Below are positions 150 to 8,782 of a stretch of 9,546 nucleotides of DNA, in pieces; position 1 is the stretch's first letter, and the number at the start of each line of letters is the position of its first letter. Below the pieces are notes generated by a model that was not told the DNA's origin, ran no database searches, and saw only the letters and a program-made list of their open reading frames with translations. The stretch covers positions 1 to 9,546 of the forward strand of contig JBFLYA010000145.1 in the NCBI GenBank assembly GCA_040757115.1, given 5' to 3'. A program made the position numbers and the translations under genes. The stretch is from a bacterium. GTDB taxonomy: Bacteria; UBA9089; CG2-30-40-21; SBAY01.

Positions 150-3047
150 CTAAAAAGTATAGCTCAGGGAGGTAGTAACATTTCTTGTTGTAGGTCTTTC
201 AGTGGAAGGGCGGTCTTGTAGAAAACTGATGTTTAGTGAAAGATTGTCCAGGAAAGAATAATTACCCGCAACATTCAAGTTCTCACTTTCACTATCGTTA
301 GATTTAGTAGAACTAAATGTGGTTGTAAGTCCAAAAGGCGCTTTTGTAATCTCCATGCCTACTGTTCGGGAAATAGTTTCCTGGTTAATTGTCGTTGTTT
401 TCCCCTTATTTATGTTATAGGCATAAGATGTTGAAACTATCTCGGTTATAGGAGCGCGGATGGAAACCTTCGTCTCTGTATCTATTTTATCTGTGTCATC
501 CGGGGAATAGATATAAGTTTGCCCAAAAGTAAGTGGAAAATCCCGATTTTTTATCCTCAAATTGTAATTTATATCTGTGCTGTAATTGTGTGTTATATTT
601 CTTTCTGTGGCTTTCTGCTCAGCCAAAACATAACCTATTTGATAGTCCAGGTTTTCAAAGACTGGCTGAGAAAGTTGGAGAGTAAGATTATGAGTAAGAT
701 TTCGTGTCTTTTCATCTAAGGAATAAGACTTATCAACACAATTACTGAAATTACAAGATAGAGTCATCTCTTTTATAAGATTAAAGAGAAGGTTCAAGGT
801 ATATCCGGTATTTTCAGATTTAGGGTTACCTTGTTCATCCTTTATCTTTGTTGACTGAAATTCAATCCCTGTTTGCCCCAAAAACCTTTTTTCCCCTATA
901 TCGTAAGTCATACCTGCGGTTGTCAGATGCGTTTTAGCACTATTGGCAGATTCTTCTGTATCAGATAAGTTATAGCCCACACGGAAGATTAAAGAAGATA
1001 ATGCTTGCCAGGAGAGTCCATAATCCTGGGTAAATGTTTTAATATCTGTCTCTGTGGTCTGGGATTTAGAAAGGTTATTATTTAAGTTAAATTTAGTTAT
1101 AAATTTTAATTTCTCATTAATCTGGCTGATAAGTCCTGCCATATAGTTTTCCGACTCAGATGAGGTTTTTAAACTTTCATCATCAGGTATGTTATCAGTA
1201 TCAGAAGATTGAATATCAAGGTTTAACTCGAAGATTTTCTTGAAAGGGATATTTGATGTTAGCCCAATAGATTTTACCTTAGTTTTATTCTTTTCAACAA
1301 AGTCCTGTGTTTTGCCAAGATTTAGAATAATATCCGTGGTCGCCTGCCCTAACTTACTCCCCAGAGAGAAGTTAAAATCTTCTGTTTTAACTTCTTTATC
1401 TGAACCAACATTCTCTCTTGTATTTTTATTATCTGAATTAGAGTAATTGAATTGTATAGGGAAGTTATTAAATACGGATATACCCAGACCAATCTTCATA
1501 GAATCATCTTTACTCTTGTAATCGGTTTCATCGAAGGTATTCAAGCTATCTTCTGTCTTGCCCGATAACGCCAATTCCCACAAAGGATTTTTTATACCTA
1601 CATCAAGGTCGGCTTTTTGTTTCCCGCCGGTTGTGAACTCTTGCTTATTTGCCTTAATCTCGCTTCTTATTTCAACTCCATTGTCGAGAGAGCGTGTCTG
1701 ATTTACCGCGACATTGGTCGATAGGGCATGTTGAGTTTGATTCTGTTCATCTTCTACTGTTTGATAGCCTGTGGTAATTCCACCGGATGCCCCATCTACT
1801 TCAAATTCAGTCCAGTCTATTTGTGTTGGTTGTCCGCTTGTCCCATCCACATCCCCATATTCCCATCCGCCTTCCATCTCTCCTCCATCCCACTCTTCGC
1901 CCTCTTCCATTTCTTCTTCTGGCTCTGGTTCTTCCTCTGGTTCTACTGGTGGTTCTTCCTCTGGCGCTATTGGTGATTCTTCCTCTGATTCTATTGGTGG
2001 TTCTTCCTCTGGCTCTATTGGTGGTTCTTCCGGACTAATAGGAAGGGGAATTACTATTCTTCCTGGATTGGGATAGATTATTTGAACTTCCAATTTACGG
2101 ACTCCAGCTGGAATAAAAGGAGAGACTATCACATCGTTATTTTTTGTTGCCGGAACTTTGAAACTACGCCAGCCCTTGCCATCGAGATAAATATTTCCCC
2201 TGACATCTCCAATTCGTGTCTCTGAAGTTCTTAATTTGATGCCGACTTTGAATTCTTTTTTCTTTTGAATGTCTTTTTTGGGTAAGATAACTTTCATCCC
2301 TTTTACTCTAAACAGCTCATCTCTTAGAGTAGTGCGAACCTCTATTTGAATTGGAGAACTACCGCGAATCGGATTACCGAGGGTATCATAGCCTGAAAAT
2401 GTGCGGCTAATCGTAAATTTACCGTTTGCCTTTCCTGACAGTGCCTGTGCCCTTTTCATATCATCAAGGATAATTGGTCTATTTAACCGTTTGGGAGCCC
2501 CTGGTGTAATATTTTCAGAGATGAGAAAAACCTCTGTTTTTGTCCCATTCCCAAATCGATACATAACCTCCTCCCGGGTTATCCTGGCGCCAACAGGACC
2601 ATTTAGCGAGAGGGTATAGGATAAATTAGCCCTCTTTTCGCCTTTATAAAATATTAAGGCATTAGGTGATGGCGTAACACGGAGAGTTGTAGCCACAATA
2701 TTTACTTTGATGCCATCAGAAGATTTCCATTGCTGACCATAAGCATCTCTAACCGCGAAGTAGTAAGTTTTACCCTGGGTCAATGATAAACCAGACCTCG
2801 TCACACTCGTTCCTGTGGCAAATGTCCAGGTAACTACATCTGTTCCGCCGCGGGTTGTCCCAATGGCATACAGATAACCGTTGGCACCTACTACTGGTGC
2901 CCAGTTTGCGGACAATTGTGTTGTTGACCGTGTCCAGTCTTCATCTGCACCGAGACCATCATTTACCCAAGCTGGTGCTTGAGCGAAACCTACCTCTGCG
3001 GTCAATAAAATCCCTAAAACTATACCCAAAGTTTTTATCCTGTCCAT
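150..3047 (-). CDS. Secreted Fn3-like / Pro-Glu linker / outer-membrane beta-barrel protein
   Basis: A 965-residue exported protein of unknown specific function. Residues 1-22 form a signal peptide with likely cleavage at GFA|QA. Residues about 25-118 resemble a fibronectin type III-like domain (LSANW, then a GLSLTQGKTYYFAV block). Residues 120-335 look like further beta-rich domains. Residues about 339-375 are Pro-Glu octapeptide repeats, followed by a Glu/Gly-rich stretch to about 410. From about 425 to the end the sequence alternates polar and hydrophobic residues, with Asn/Thr/Ser-rich turns, and finishes in SLSYTF. A terminal Phe after alternating residues is the classical signature for barrel insertion by BAM. 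The ATG start is supported by AAGGAGG at 3056-3062, 8 nt away. The gene is divergent from the 3453-6492 operon. A pore or surface-scaffold role is inference; no enzymatic motif was seen. Confidence 0.85.
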   Translation of the reverse strand: MDRIKTLGIVLGILLTAEVGFAQAPAWVNDGLGADEDWTRSTTQLSANWAPVVGANGYLYAIGTTRGGTDVVTWTFATGTSVTRSGLSLTQGKTYYFAVRDAYGQQWKSSDGIKVNIVATTLRVTPSPNALIFYKGEKRANLSYTLSLNGPVGARITREEVMYRFGNGTKTEVFLISENITPGAPKRLNRPIILDDMKRAQALSGKANGKFTISRTFSGYDTLGNPIRGSSPIQIEVRTTLRDELFRVKGMKVILPKKDIQKKKEFKVGIKLRTSETRIGDVRGNIYLDGKGWRSFKVPATKNNDVIVSPFIPAGVRKLEVQIIYPNPGRIVIPLPISPEEPPIEPEEEPPIESEEESPIAPEEEPPVEPEEEPEPEEEMEEGEEWDGGEMEGGWEYGDVDGTSGQPTQIDWTEFEVDGASGGITTGYQTVEDEQNQTQHALSTNVAVNQTRSLDNGVEIRSEIKANKQEFTTGGKQKADLDVGIKNPLWELALSGKTEDSLNTFDETDYKSKDDSMKIGLGISVFNNFPIQFNYSNSDNKNTRENVGSDKEVKTEDFNFSLGSKLGQATTDIILNLGKTQDFVEKNKTKVKSIGLTSNIPFKKIFELNLDIQSSDTDNIPDDESLKTSSESENYMAGLISQINEKLKFITKFNLNNNLSKSQTTETDIKTFTQDYGLSWQALSSLIFRVGYNLSDTEESANSAKTHLTTAGMTYDIGEKRFLGQTGIEFQSTKIKDEQGNPKSENTGYTLNLLFNLIKEMTLSCNFSNCVDKSYSLDEKTRNLTHNLTLQLSQPVFENLDYQIGYVLAEQKATERNITHNYSTDINYNLRIKNRDFPLTFGQTYIYSPDDTDKIDTETKVSIRAPITEIVSTSYAYNINKGKTTTINQETISRTVGMEITKAPFGLTTTFSSTKSNDSESENLNVAGNYSFLDNLSLNISFLQDRPSTERPTTRNVTTSLSYTF
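1921..2031 (-). repeat. 24-bp in-frame tandem repeat coding for Pro-Glu octapeptides
   Basis: Three consecutive 24-bp units (1948-1971, 1972-1995, 1996-2019) plus partial flanking units lie inside the barrel-protein gene. On the coding strand they give octapeptides of the type EEPPIEPE, EEPPIESE and EESPIAPE. The unit is a multiple of three, so gain or loss of copies would change linker length without a frameshift. Pro-Glu spacers are usually extended and rigid, as in TonB-type proteins. Here the spacer separates the soluble N-terminal domains from the barrel. Confidence 0.9.
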
Positions 3048-3452: not shown

Positions 3453-3902
3453 ATGTTAGCAAAGGAGTCAAGACCATTATTTGTCCTGTTTTGGGGAATT
3501 GTTCTCCTGTGTGTTATCCTTTCATCTCAGGGAAGAGTAATGGGCAAGGTAGAAAAAACGGTTAAACCAAAGATAATTATTTCAGTTTCTTCCTGTGGCA
3601 AAGAGGCAGATTTTCCATCAAAAGATAAACTTGTGACTATGGGGAAGGAGATAATTCAGAGCATTTTCCCTTTGGAGATAGAAAAGAGTCGTCGAGTAAA
3701 AGGGGAGATTAGCTTTATCGGGCGGAAGGGAAAAGTGCCGATGTTTAAGATGGATTGCCTATTCCTCTACAAGACAACTTATACCGCTGTTACTCACCAT
3801 GTTGTCTTTAAACTCCATGTAACCGGATACATCATTGTATCCGTTGATGATAAATTATGGGACACCACAAGCGTAAAATCTAAAATAAAAAGGAGGAAAT
3901 AG
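3453..3902 (+). CDS. Exported protein of unknown function, first gene of operon
   Basis: A 149-residue protein that I do not recognise. A hydrophobic segment at residues about 9-24 follows a short basic N-terminus, so it is either a cleaved signal peptide (possible cut near RVMG|KVE) or a signal anchor. The rest is basic and beta-rich, with Cys48, Cys102, a His115-His116 pair and a Lys/Arg-rich tail ending KIKRRK. Residues about 102-131 (with KTTYTA at 107-112) weakly resemble residues 107-137 of the next gene product (KTTYSA at 113-118). The start is supported by AAGGGG 9 nt upstream and by the consensus promoter at 3392-3421. The stop is 2 nt from the next start, and the AGGAGG of the downstream gene lies inside this reading frame, so translation is probably coupled. 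Confidence 0.75.
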   Translation: MLAKESRPLFVLFWGIVLLCVILSSQGRVMGKVEKTVKPKIIISVSSCGKEADFPSKDKLVTMGKEIIQSIFPLEIEKSRRVKGEISFIGRKGKVPMFKMDCLFLYKTTYTAVTHHVVFKLHVTGYIIVSVDDKLWDTTSVKSKIKRRK

Positions 3903-3904
3903 AT

Positions 3905-5452
3905 ATGAAGACTTTTTTATTTTCAGTTTTTTTCTCAATGTGTTGTATCCCATTAGCATGGGCACAACAACTGTTTCCAGGAGCCAAAATAATCGATGAC
4001 AAGGTGATAAAGATTCCCTCAGTGGTTCAGGTTGCGACGAATATTAGAGATGTTCAATTGACCACGCGCCTGACTCTTGAGCAGATAGATAAACAAAATG
4101 TGGAGAAAGCAACTAAGTTACTGATTAATCAACAGCTTGCGACTCTGGTTGGTCGGAGTAGTTCAGTAAGACCAATAGTAACGGTGCTCCAAAGAGTTGG
4201 CAAGAAACTTTTGGTTGAATCGCTGGTTGTTTTCCGTGATAAAACAACATATAGTGCTACACTTTCAAAGATGGACTATGAAGTCGAAGGTGACCAGGTC
4301 ATTTTAAAGCAGAAGATTGATGACTATAGTCCACGGATAGCCGTTTTACAGAAACCCGGCGCTCCAAAGGCTGAAACACTAAAGATTAAAAAGGATATTC
4401 TTGCCAATCTAAAGATTTCTCTACCGCAGGGATATGGGCCAAAGGCACTTGCCAATACACCTTGCGATGATATTTCTACAGCAGTGCAATATACAAACCA
4501 GATACACAATATCTTTGTTCAGGCATTTGGACTGGCGGAAAAAAAGATTGGTAACAAGAGCACAAAAGCCGCCCTGATGAATATTCTACAAAAGGGCACA
4601 CGGCTTCTGGCATGGAATAACATCGGGCACGGAAATCCAGACCTGATTGTCGAGTGGAATGACAAATTAATAACGCATGCCGATTTTAATACGCCAACTT
4701 CGTTTGAAGGTGTTTATAATGCCGTCATTCTTCTAAACTCGTGTGATACCTGTGCCTCACCATACCATCTCAAAAATGCGATTATGAACCACAATCCTCG
4801 CACCTTCATTGCAGGCAGTAAAGGTTTACCAATTGGCTCATCAGAAGAAGTGGATTATCATTTCTGGAACTATTCACTTCTTCAAAATCAGACTATGGCC
4901 TGGTCTTTAAATGAGGCAGAGAAAAAGAAAAACCTTCTTGGCTATTTCTGTCTGAATGGCTACAATGGGAAATTTGCAGAAGTTGAGGCGGCAAAATTCA
5001 CCGAAGATTGCATACCATTTGACTATAAGAAAGTAAAGGCTAAAAATGTAAATGGTCGGTGGAAAGTAGTTCAAGGGAGTATGTGGATGCTTGATTTCGG
5101 AACCAATAAATCTCAAGCAGAAAAGGCTATTGAGATTATGAAACACTACAAGCTTGACCGTCAATGCTTTGTTGGACGACCTGATGCTCCGATGCAATAC
5201 TATACCACAGGTGGAAAAGCACCTCAGGGGAGCCTGGCTGGTGAGGATTGCATTTCGTTCAATCCTAACAATGTAACCGCTAAAAATATCGGTGGACATT
5301 GGAAGGTTGTTGATGGCTCACACTGGCTCCTTGATTTTGGTAACAAAGAAGCGGAATCAAAGATTGCCGTAGAAATCATAAAATTTTATGGTTTCAAGCA
5401 GATATGTTTTGTGGGAAGACCAAATGCGCCAATGATGTATTTTAAAAAGTAG
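3905..5452 (+). CDS. Secreted caspase-fold-like (clan CD) protein with duplicated C-terminal CFVGRP repeat
   Basis: A 515-residue exported protein. Residues 1-20 are a signal peptide ending WA|QQ. Residues 21-180 are an unassigned N-terminal region. Residues about 190-350 have the layout of clan CD cysteine peptidases (caspase, gingipain and CHAT types): IGHGN with His242 after a hydrophobic strand, then 38 residues on a second strand ending LLNSCDT with Cys280, then a TFIAGSKGLPIGSSE segment like the post-Cys strand and loop of such folds. His242/Cys280 are the proposed dyad. Residues 368-434 and 448-515 are two copies of a roughly 67-residue module (DCI..F, G.WKVV.GS.W, LDFG, CFVGRP.APM.Y). 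The gene has a strong AGGAGG site (3891-3896) 8 nt before its ATG. Peptidase activity is inference; it could be an inactive caspase-like fold. The operon suggests an envelope or extracellular role. Confidence 0.82.
   Translation: MKTFLFSVFFSMCCIPLAWAQQLFPGAKIIDDKVIKIPSVVQVATNIRDVQLTTRLTLEQIDKQNVEKATKLLINQQLATLVGRSSSVRPIVTVLQRVGKKLLVESLVVFRDKTTYSATLSKMDYEVEGDQVILKQKIDDYSPRIAVLQKPGAPKAETLKIKKDILANLKISLPQGYGPKALANTPCDDISTAVQYTNQIHNIFVQAFGLAEKKIGNKSTKAALMNILQKGTRLLAWNNIGHGNPDLIVEWNDKLITHADFNTPTSFEGVYNAVILLNSCDTCASPYHLKNAIMNHNPRTFIAGSKGLPIGSSEEVDYHFWNYSLLQNQTMAWSLNEAEKKKNLLGYFCLNGYNGKFAEVEAAKFTEDCIPFDYKKVKAKNVNGRWKVVQGSMWMLDFGTNKSQAEKAIEIMKHYKLDRQCFVGRPDAPMQYYTTGGKAPQGSLAGEDCISFNPNNVTAKNIGGHWKVVDGSHWLLDFGNKEAESKIAVEIIKFYGFKQICFVGRPNAPMMYFKK
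5006..5449 (+). repeat. Two tandem 67-residue modules with about 80-residue period
   Basis: The two copies encode residues 368-434 and 448-515 of the caspase-like protein. Shared positions include DCI, AKN, G.WKVV.GS.W.LDFG, EI.K.Y, CFVGRP and APM.Y. A short Gly-rich spacer (TTGGKAPQG) joins them. Each copy carries two conserved Cys (369 and the CFVGRP Cys in copy 1; 449 and its equivalent in copy 2), consistent with one disulfide per module in an oxidising compartment. I recall similar modules at the C-termini of other bacterial secreted proteins but cannot name a family. A surface-binding or sorting role is inference. Confidence 0.8.
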
Positions 5453-6526: not shown

Positions 6527-7873
6527 CTAATGGCTTACCTTTCTTTTATCCTTCTCAAAATTAAACTTTGGGTCTTTATCCGTGGTATGGCATTTTGTGC
6601 AAATCCCGCTTGAATCTACCTTGCCAGGTTTATCCCCAATCTTTGCTATCTGCTTATCTACAAAAGGGTTTTGACGGGTGATTAGATGCACCATTCCTAA
6701 TTTATGGCACTCCTCACACCCAACATTAATAAAATCAGGTGTCGTCTGATAGTCTGAAAAACCATTATCTTCTTTGAAATGGGTCGTATGACATTTAAGG
6801 CATTCAGGATTTTTTTCCTCCTTAACTCTCTGGAGGGATTGAAATGCCTTTGCATGTTTTGTCTTTTTCCATTGTTTATATTGTTTGTCGTGGCAGGTAC
6901 TACATCTTTTTGTTCCGGCATATATCGTTCGAACAAATGGGTTAGCGGGTTGACTTATGCCTTTCTCCTGGGTTTCTTTCTTATATTCCTCAATTATTTT
7001 GGCTATTTTTTCATCCACTGGCACAGATTCCTCAAGAACACTATTTTTTTCTTCAAAAGAGGTTATTCCTTTATCAAGATAGACCTTAATACATCTTCCT
7101 TCATCCCCTTTAGATGATGGTTGGAGAATTAAAGTGTGGTTAGTCTTGATTACCCCTCCTTCTTTTGTCACTCTAAACAATTCATCACAAATTATAATAT
7201 CTATTCCCTCAACTCCTTTTACCAGGTCTAAAGATTCTCCTTTGGTTAGTTGAGTTAGAGCAATAACAAGGTTACATCTATCCCTTAATGATTTGACGAT
7301 TTCTTTAGCAACATCGATTGGGTCTTTTATAATTAACCCTTCTTCTAATTTGATTTGTCTGGATAGTCCAAAGATACCTATTTTAATTTCTTTGTCAACA
7401 CCAGGAAAAGATTTAATTATGTATGGGGCTGTAAGTAATTTATCTTTGTCAAATATATTGGCAGAAACAAATGGGAGATTATATTTTTCTTTTAAATTAA
7501 TCAGCGTATTTTTGTCAAGATGTGGTATATCTTTTTCACTTAGATTTATCGCATCATAGTGCATTTGTGCCATTGCTCTGGCGATATATTCATTTTTCAC
7601 ATCTTTTATATTTTTTTGGCTTGAGACAAAATAGCCTGAATCGAGGACAAGATTTATGGGTGCATTTTGCGTATTTTCTTTAATAAAAGTAGCCCATCTG
7701 ACCAGACCGCCGCCTCTTTTACCTCCACACCCACAGGGCTCTAAATAGCCTTTTATATTACCCGAATAAAATATTTGAATTGTGGGAATAGAAATATTTG
7801 TCTCTTTTCCTTTGACTGGTGACTGCATTCCAGCCAGAGAAATTACTAATAATAAAAGTAATAACCTCTTCAT
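6527..7873 (-). CDS. Periplasmic 5'-nucleotidase-like / tetraheme cytochrome c554-like fusion protein
   Basis: A 448-residue protein likely to take part in periplasmic electron transfer. Residues 1-22 are a signal peptide. Residues about 30-290 resemble the UshA-like metallophosphoesterase fold, with YSGNIKGYLEPCGCGG (36-51) where active enzymes have a TND.HG metal motif, a LDSGYF block and SANIF. The usual Asp/His metal ligands appear replaced, so phosphatase activity is doubtful. The C-terminal third has four c-type heme sites: C324-C327-H328, C358-C361-H362, C386-C389-H390 and C425-C428-H429. Extra histidines H340, H365, H396 and H448 could serve as distal ligands. The pattern fits the cytochrome c554 family. 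The third site reads CHKLG where relatives often have CHGPG. The ATG has AGAGG (7881-7885) 7 nt upstream. The gene lies just downstream of tRNA-Glu on the same strand, so read-through transcription is possible. The protein ends 19 residues after heme 4, on a His. Confidence 0.88.
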   Translation of the reverse strand: MKRLLLLLLVISLAGMQSPVKGKETNISIPTIQIFYSGNIKGYLEPCGCGGKRGGGLVRWATFIKENTQNAPINLVLDSGYFVSSQKNIKDVKNEYIARAMAQMHYDAINLSEKDIPHLDKNTLINLKEKYNLPFVSANIFDKDKLLTAPYIIKSFPGVDKEIKIGIFGLSRQIKLEEGLIIKDPIDVAKEIVKSLRDRCNLVIALTQLTKGESLDLVKGVEGIDIIICDELFRVTKEGGVIKTNHTLILQPSSKGDEGRCIKVYLDKGITSFEEKNSVLEESVPVDEKIAKIIEEYKKETQEKGISQPANPFVRTIYAGTKRCSTCHDKQYKQWKKTKHAKAFQSLQRVKEEKNPECLKCHTTHFKEDNGFSDYQTTPDFINVGCEECHKLGMVHLITRQNPFVDKQIAKIGDKPGKVDSSGICTKCHTTDKDPKFNFEKDKRKVSH

Positions 7874-7924: not shown

Positions 7925-8000
7925 TGGTAGCGCCACGGGGATTCGAACCCCGGTCTGATGGCTGAGAACCACCTATCCTGGACCCCTAGACGATGGCGCC
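7925..8000 (-). tRNA. trnE: tRNA-Glu (anticodon CUC)
   Basis: A 76-nt cloverleaf with encoded CCA. The acceptor is GGCGCCA with TGGCGCT (first pair G-U), discriminator A. The D arm begins GTCTAG, as is typical for bacterial Glu tRNAs. The anticodon stem GGTGG/CCATC holds loop TTCTCAG, giving anticodon CUC that reads GAG. The T arm is CGGGG-TTCGAAT-CCCCG. The wobble G-U pair closing the acceptor stem is mildly unusual. The cytochrome fusion gene begins about 50 bp downstream. Confidence 0.96.
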
Positions 8001-8708: not shown

Positions 8709-8782
8709 TGGCTGGGGAGCAAGGATTCGAACCTCAACTAACAGATCCAGAGTCTGCTGTCCTACCATTAGACGACTCCCCA
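8709..8782 (-). tRNA. trnQ: tRNA-Gln (anticodon CUG)
   Basis: A 74-nt cloverleaf with encoded CCA. The acceptor is TGGGGAG with CTCCCCA, with the unstable U-A first pair and G discriminator typical of Gln tRNAs. The anticodon stem GCAGA/TCTGT holds loop CTCTGGA, giving CUG that reads CAG. The T arm is TGAGG-TTCGAAT-CCTTG with two G-U pairs. It lies on the same strand as accB, 81 bp after its stop. A TATGAT box at 8788-8793 precedes it without a convincing -35, so it may be read from accB. Confidence 0.96.

Follow-up and report, generated by a model that had tools for sequence, protein, structure and literature searches.

Does the 515-aa protein encoded at positions 3905–5452 (+) of the window, by which we mean the whole 9,546-nt stretch of DNA analyzed here, represent an exported peptidase of the caspase type, and does its gene belong to a larger unit? 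The open reading frame, P0001, is preceded just 5' by an AGGAGG ribosome-binding site (3892–3897, +). Its first 20 residues (3905–3964, +) resemble a Sec signal peptide in sequence and hydropathy, with a hydrophobic core followed by AWA|QQ and probable cleavage after AWA. A similar hydrophobic start is present in all aligned homologues, in agreement with the signal peptide proposed in the initial annotation. No sorting signal beyond export was recognised by eye. Based on this export-signal-like N-terminus we infer that P0001 is exported.

The remainder of the protein is divided into four parts. The N-terminal domain (residues ~40–140; 4022–4324, +) was modelled by AlphaFold with eight sequences at a pLDDT of mostly 70–90, and is followed by a caspase-like domain (residues ~175–357; 4427–4975, +), supported by homologues and by alignment to C25 and CHAT profiles. 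Two CFVGRP modules, recognised in the sequence, complete the protein: module 1 (residues 367–434; 5003–5206, +; pLDDT ~70–93) and module 2 (residues 447–514; 5243–5446, +; pLDDT ~79–92). The motif IGHGN begins at residue 240, LLNSCDT at residue 276 and CFVGRP at residues 421 and 501, which places the codons of His242 (in IGHG) at 4628–4630 (+) and of Cys280 (in LNSC) at 4742–4744 (+). The coordinates and motifs originally assigned to the protein were thus correct.

A scan of genome contigs with P0001 alone returned no homologue, the peptide patterns being specific to the single sequence. The first relative (L007) came from a whole-genome search and belongs to Candidatus Aerophobetes (L057); weaker matches below it (L009, L010 and L012) were inspected and rejected as unrelated proteins. 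A contig scan with a two-row alignment identified members in Geobacter GAC1 (L051), Syntrophus (L052), Geobacter UBA2189 (L053), Holophagaceae (L054 and L055) and a Methanosarcinales archaeon that carries the gene twice in tandem (L056). The eight homologues are thus from Geobacter (two), Syntrophus, Holophagaceae (two), Aerophobetes and the archaeon (two). Identity to the window protein in the caspase-like domain is 74–76% for Geobacter and Syntrophus, 56% for Holophagaceae, 41% for the archaeon and 29% for Aerophobetes.

The family is rare. None of the 18 further genomes of the phylum to which the window belongs, one of them from the same genus, contains a member; among genomes around Geobacter GAC1 the count was 2 of 391, and among those around the archaeon 1 of 245. 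Plasmids yielded nothing for the archaeal homologue or for the downstream gene product P0002, and viral contigs yielded nothing with four profiles. The high identity across phyla together with the patchy presence suggests horizontal transfer, although all homologue records are metagenome-assembled genomes, in which binning errors for single loci are possible. The archaeal locus (L056:2-4361) carries, in addition to the two tandem homologues, the end of an apparent third with a similar C-terminal domain, which suggests repeated tandem duplication.

The initial annotation had proposed His242 and Cys280 as a catalytic dyad and had set their conservation beforehand as the test by which the proposal could fail. 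Both residues are retained in all eight homologues, as in the window protein. In the eight-sequence alignment, 28 of the 200 columns spanning residues 158–357 are invariant down to 25–29% identity, among them N239, I240, G241, H242, G243, N278, S279 and C280, as well as R299, S313, F320 and W321. His242 and Cys280 are the only invariant histidine and cysteine in this domain alignment, and the second archaeal paralogue, which is partly masked and lies outside the eight rows, also has IGHG and NSC. Judged from these alignments, the conservation of the dyad is more than chance. Clan CD is defined by a His-Cys dyad with a glycine next to the histidine (PMC4357240, PMC12445089), and NIGHG and NSC provide the glycine beside the histidine, and the histidine before the cysteine, in all aligned homologues. 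The measured spacing from His to Cys is 38 residues in P0001, as compared to 35 in a C25 member, 41 in CHAT and 49 in C11. Between the window protein and its Geobacter GAC1 homologue, identity is 76% in the caspase-like domain, 63% in the modules and 41% in the N-terminal domain. The caspase-like domain is thus the most conserved part of P0001, as would be expected if an enzyme core were coupled to a rapidly evolving prodomain.

Comparison with sequence libraries assigned the protein to no family. P0001 had no significant match in Pfam, NCBIfam, PADLOC, PHROGs or PDB sequences, the family profile found no significant relative in the PDB, and the eight aligned members had no significant match to a peptidase family in Pfam. 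None of the eight matched the profiles of C25 (PF01364) or CHAT (PF12770) at E up to 1, and neither C14 (PF00656) nor C13 legumain (PF01650) was listed in their Pfam scan. Five true C25 domains elsewhere in the source genome match PF01364 at E 1.5e-58 or better, and three other loci match PF12770, showing that such domains are readily detected when present. Since the profile tests failed for C25, CHAT, C11, C13 and C14, we filed the family under none of these.

The relationship to clan CD was further analyzed by aligning the family domain, using hhalign, with alignments of C25 and CHAT domains from this and related genomes. These contain five rows each, which makes all of the following shuffle controls rough. 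The alignment scores are weak, being reached by 17 of 300 column shuffles for C25 and 15 of 300 for CHAT (p ~0.05). In the unconstrained alignments, His242 was placed on the family histidine and Cys280 on the family cysteine for both C25 and CHAT. When the catalytic columns were fixed and the rest shuffled, both residues were in register in 6 (C25) and 8 (CHAT) of 300 rough controls; for each family, 0 of 300 combined this register with the observed score. A single C11 sequence aligned with the dyad out of register.

Structure prediction was confident outside the caspase-like region only. A single-sequence AlphaFold model of P0001 had a pLDDT of 35; with eight sequences, the N-terminal domain and the modules were confident and the caspase-like region remained at ~30–54, a level at which the fold is not confirmed. 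This low-confidence model has a strand at residues 234–240 just before His242, a hairpin at 249–256, a helix at 258–262, a strand at 274–279 just before Cys280, a strand at 299–302, and helices at 314–326 and 331–342. In the clan CD plan, strands 3 and 4 end at the dyad residues and a glycine adjoins the histidine (PMC4357240); the order of elements modelled at pLDDT ~30–54 fits this plan. No clan CD structure was among the matches of Foldseek or VIA-align; their search effectively covered residues 45–146 and is uninformative on the caspase-like domain. Thus, a caspase-type fold, as originally proposed, appears likely from the dyad register with C25 and CHAT and from the modelled order of elements; on the other side stand the lack of a confident structure and of a clan CD match in Pfam.

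Immediately upstream of P0001 lies a gene for a small exported protein of 149 aa, P0003 (3453–3902, +), which ends 2 nt before the P0001 gene and is a free-standing copy of the P0001 N-terminal domain. A profile of this domain built without P0001 matched P0003 at E 1e-10, with ~30 bits as compared to at most ~5 for shuffles, and P0003 was also matched by profile A8 in the whole-genome search (E 1.1e-5). Counterparts of P0003 are located upstream of the homologues in Geobacter GAC1, Syntrophus and both Holophagaceae. No counterpart is present in Geobacter UBA2189, where other genes occupy that place, and none was seen in Aerophobetes, where the contig offers 531 bp upstream of the homologue, so that P0003 is not essential to the unit. 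Genome G391 has another standalone gene for the domain at the end of a contig (L042:5564-5788, -); it is closest to the Aerophobetes N-terminal domain, and the genes that follow it are those of an oligopeptide transporter and not the peptidase.

In the eight-sequence AlphaFold model, the N-terminal domain is predicted to consist of a helix and a four-stranded antiparallel sheet. The best Z scores against cystatin/NTF2-like structures were 6–7.5, below the value of 8 that marks the tool's common-chance level, and Foldseek gave no match at E up to 0.001, so that the modelled resemblance to these folds is a lead only. The domain is prodomain-like by its position. Two clan CD enzymes are relevant here: C25 gingipain, whose N-terminal prodomain acts as its inhibitor (PMC4357240), and legumain, for which cystatins have that role (PMC9579014). 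It is by analogy with these two cases that we propose the N-terminal domain as a prodomain and P0003 as a regulator in trans.

Downstream, the gene for P0002 (5470–6492, +) starts 17 nt after the P0001 gene and encodes an exported partner of 340 aa with the motif ERDTLQTRNF..VNH...NLG and no known family. In Aerophobetes, the next gene after that of the P0001 homologue encodes a homologue of P0002 (30% identity, E 2e-45), and this neighbour is kept even though the CFVGRP modules are absent there. Genes in the same position at L051, L052, L053 and L054 also encode homologues of P0002; the contig of L055 ends too early to show a counterpart, and the archaeal locus has none. P0001 thus sits in a conserved three-gene unit, P0003-P0001-P0002, that is usual in the family but not universal. 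The initial interpretation captured the dyad but missed this wider unit, to which both flanking genes belong. The Aerophobetes contig (L041:2-9231) encodes three more proteins of interest 3' of the homologue and its partner: a clostripain (C11) whose C-terminal domain is type IX-like and whose gene lies two genes downstream of the homologue, a member of the PorV family, and a large beta-barrel protein.

The duplication of the CFVGRP modules, which had also been noted initially, is real: residues 367–434 and 447–514 share 54% identity over 67 aa (E 6e-30). Pfam and NCBIfam scans gave no family for the module, and neither a literature search for "CFVGRP" nor a phage search found anything. The modules occur in 3 of 376 sampled genomes and in two relatives of the window's order, and the double module is found on three unrelated kinds of protein. 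In one of these two relatives, an exported-looking protein (L002:1-2097, -; G006:C79) carries four modules and, after them, a cohesin-like domain (PF00963, E 1e-10), and its gene adjoins one resembling a PorV-type outer membrane protein. The modules also occur on Rhodovulum plasmids: in NZ_CP020385.1, a locus of the contractile-injection type (L083:7948-18480), with tail sheath, baseplate V, gp25 and baseplate J genes, encodes a PASTA-domain protein that ends in a double module. The modules are absent from the Aerophobetes and archaeal homologues of P0001 and present on unrelated proteins, which argues that they are a separable accessory and not part of the core. Judged from their position, their role is probably binding or anchoring.

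The rest of the window contains genes of other kinds. A 965-aa exported protein (150–3047, -) includes an acidic segment rich in Pro and Glu and probably ends in a beta-barrel, with only a weak match to OMP_b-brl (E 0.02). A protein of the UshA-like (seleno)protein family (6527–7873, -; NF041198, E 2e-69 but below the cut-off) has an EPCGC motif and a C-terminal cytochrome c554 domain. Genes for tRNA-Glu and tRNA-Gln are located at 7925–8000 and 8709–8782 (-), 1.4–2.3 kb beyond the cassette, and no integrase was seen.

Our favoured reading, which we consider reasonably probable, is that P0001 is an exported His-Cys peptidase of the caspase/haemoglobinase type and the core of a three-gene cassette with a prodomain-like N-terminal domain. 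The catalytic dyad would consist of His242 and Cys280, which would terminate two successive strands. By analogy, the N-terminal domain would probably serve as a prodomain, holding the enzyme in a latent state or aiding its folding, and P0003, which supplies this domain separately as an exported protein in its own right, would probably be a regulator or inhibitor in trans. P0002 would be the exported partner, perhaps a substrate, adaptor or scaffold, and the two modules probably an accessory binding or anchoring part. P0001 may also be a self-processing surface protein, as suggested in the initial annotation. Some caspase-fold proteins do not cut proteins; P0001 is probably proteolytic, and a candidate for a new clan CD family that is rare and outside the libraries searched.

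Three other explanations were weighed against this reading. The caspase-fold domain could serve autoprocessing only: a single cut in its own chain, between N-terminal domain, core and CFVGRP modules, would yield the mature form of an exported binding protein, and no other protein would be a substrate. The clearly separate domains of P0001, joined by low-confidence stretches in the AlphaFold model, are consistent with such a cut, as are the modules on other exported-looking proteins and the self-cleaving domains, such as C80, that clan CD includes (PMC4357240). Yet the Aerophobetes and archaeal members have no modules to release and keep the dyad, Aerophobetes also keeps the partner gene, and the standalone N-domain gene would be left unexplained, so that we regard autoprocessing alone as unlikely. 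Somewhat less probable still is a non-proteolytic exported protein, in which the histidine and cysteine would serve acyl or thioester transfer, metal binding, redox chemistry or structure. The pocket could serve another enzyme type, given that N239, N278, S279, R299, S313, F320 and W321 are invariant too, and neither a confident fold nor a sequence match to any peptidase family speaks for a protease. The order of GHG and SC, their spacing of 38, between 35 in C25 and 41 in CHAT, and the dyad register with both families nevertheless argue against it.

The last alternative concerns the neighbours, which might be independent exported genes that travel together by chance and form no functional unit. 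Block transfer of a rare and patchy family, and the absence of the small gene from L053, would agree with this; however, the adjacency of P0002 holds as far as Aerophobetes, at 30% identity and long after the blocks diverged, and P0003 shares a domain with the enzyme. We therefore consider chance linkage improbable, the least probable of the three, and retain the exported peptidase with its cassette as our reading. A bolder version of it is possible but doubtful: an undescribed exported clan CD peptidase family, with an operon-borne prodomain-like copy as dedicated trans inhibitor or activator and a dedicated exported partner, spread horizontally across several bacterial phyla and into archaea.

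Only eight named families of clan CD are given in a 2025 review of MEROPS (PMC12445089). The P0001 family would add a candidate ninth, which is rare and exported, keeps its dyad invariant, matches no profile and comes with its own three-gene unit. The cassette would further add a bacterial case in which the N-terminal domain of an enzyme is also encoded alone next door, and its three proteins make a small set that lends itself to direct testing.

Among known systems, the C25 gingipain type is alike in being exported, in having GHG followed by C with the dyad in register, and in carrying an N-terminal domain before the catalytic domain. It differs in that P0001 has no PF01364 match and an N-terminal domain without demonstrated relation to the gingipain prodomain. 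To our knowledge, neither a free-standing copy of the N-terminal domain nor a partner gene accompanies C25. CHAT shares with P0001 an alignment over the whole domain, from before the histidine to the C-terminal strand, with the dyad in register and a common FW..sLl..q.m..aLneA pattern after the cysteine. There is no PF12770 match, and the export signal of P0001 sets it apart from the characterised TPR-CHAT of Craspase, which is an intracellular CRISPR partner (PMC9729208). Clostripain C11 is likewise an exported clan CD peptidase, but was rejected as the closest relative since the dyad is out of register; P0001 also has no PF03415 match, and the C11 spacing is 49. YabG, although a sporulation protein and likened here by description only, is a precedent for a case such as P0001: a His-Cys peptidase whose sequence resembles no other clan CD family, and itself proposed as a new family of the clan (PMC12445089).
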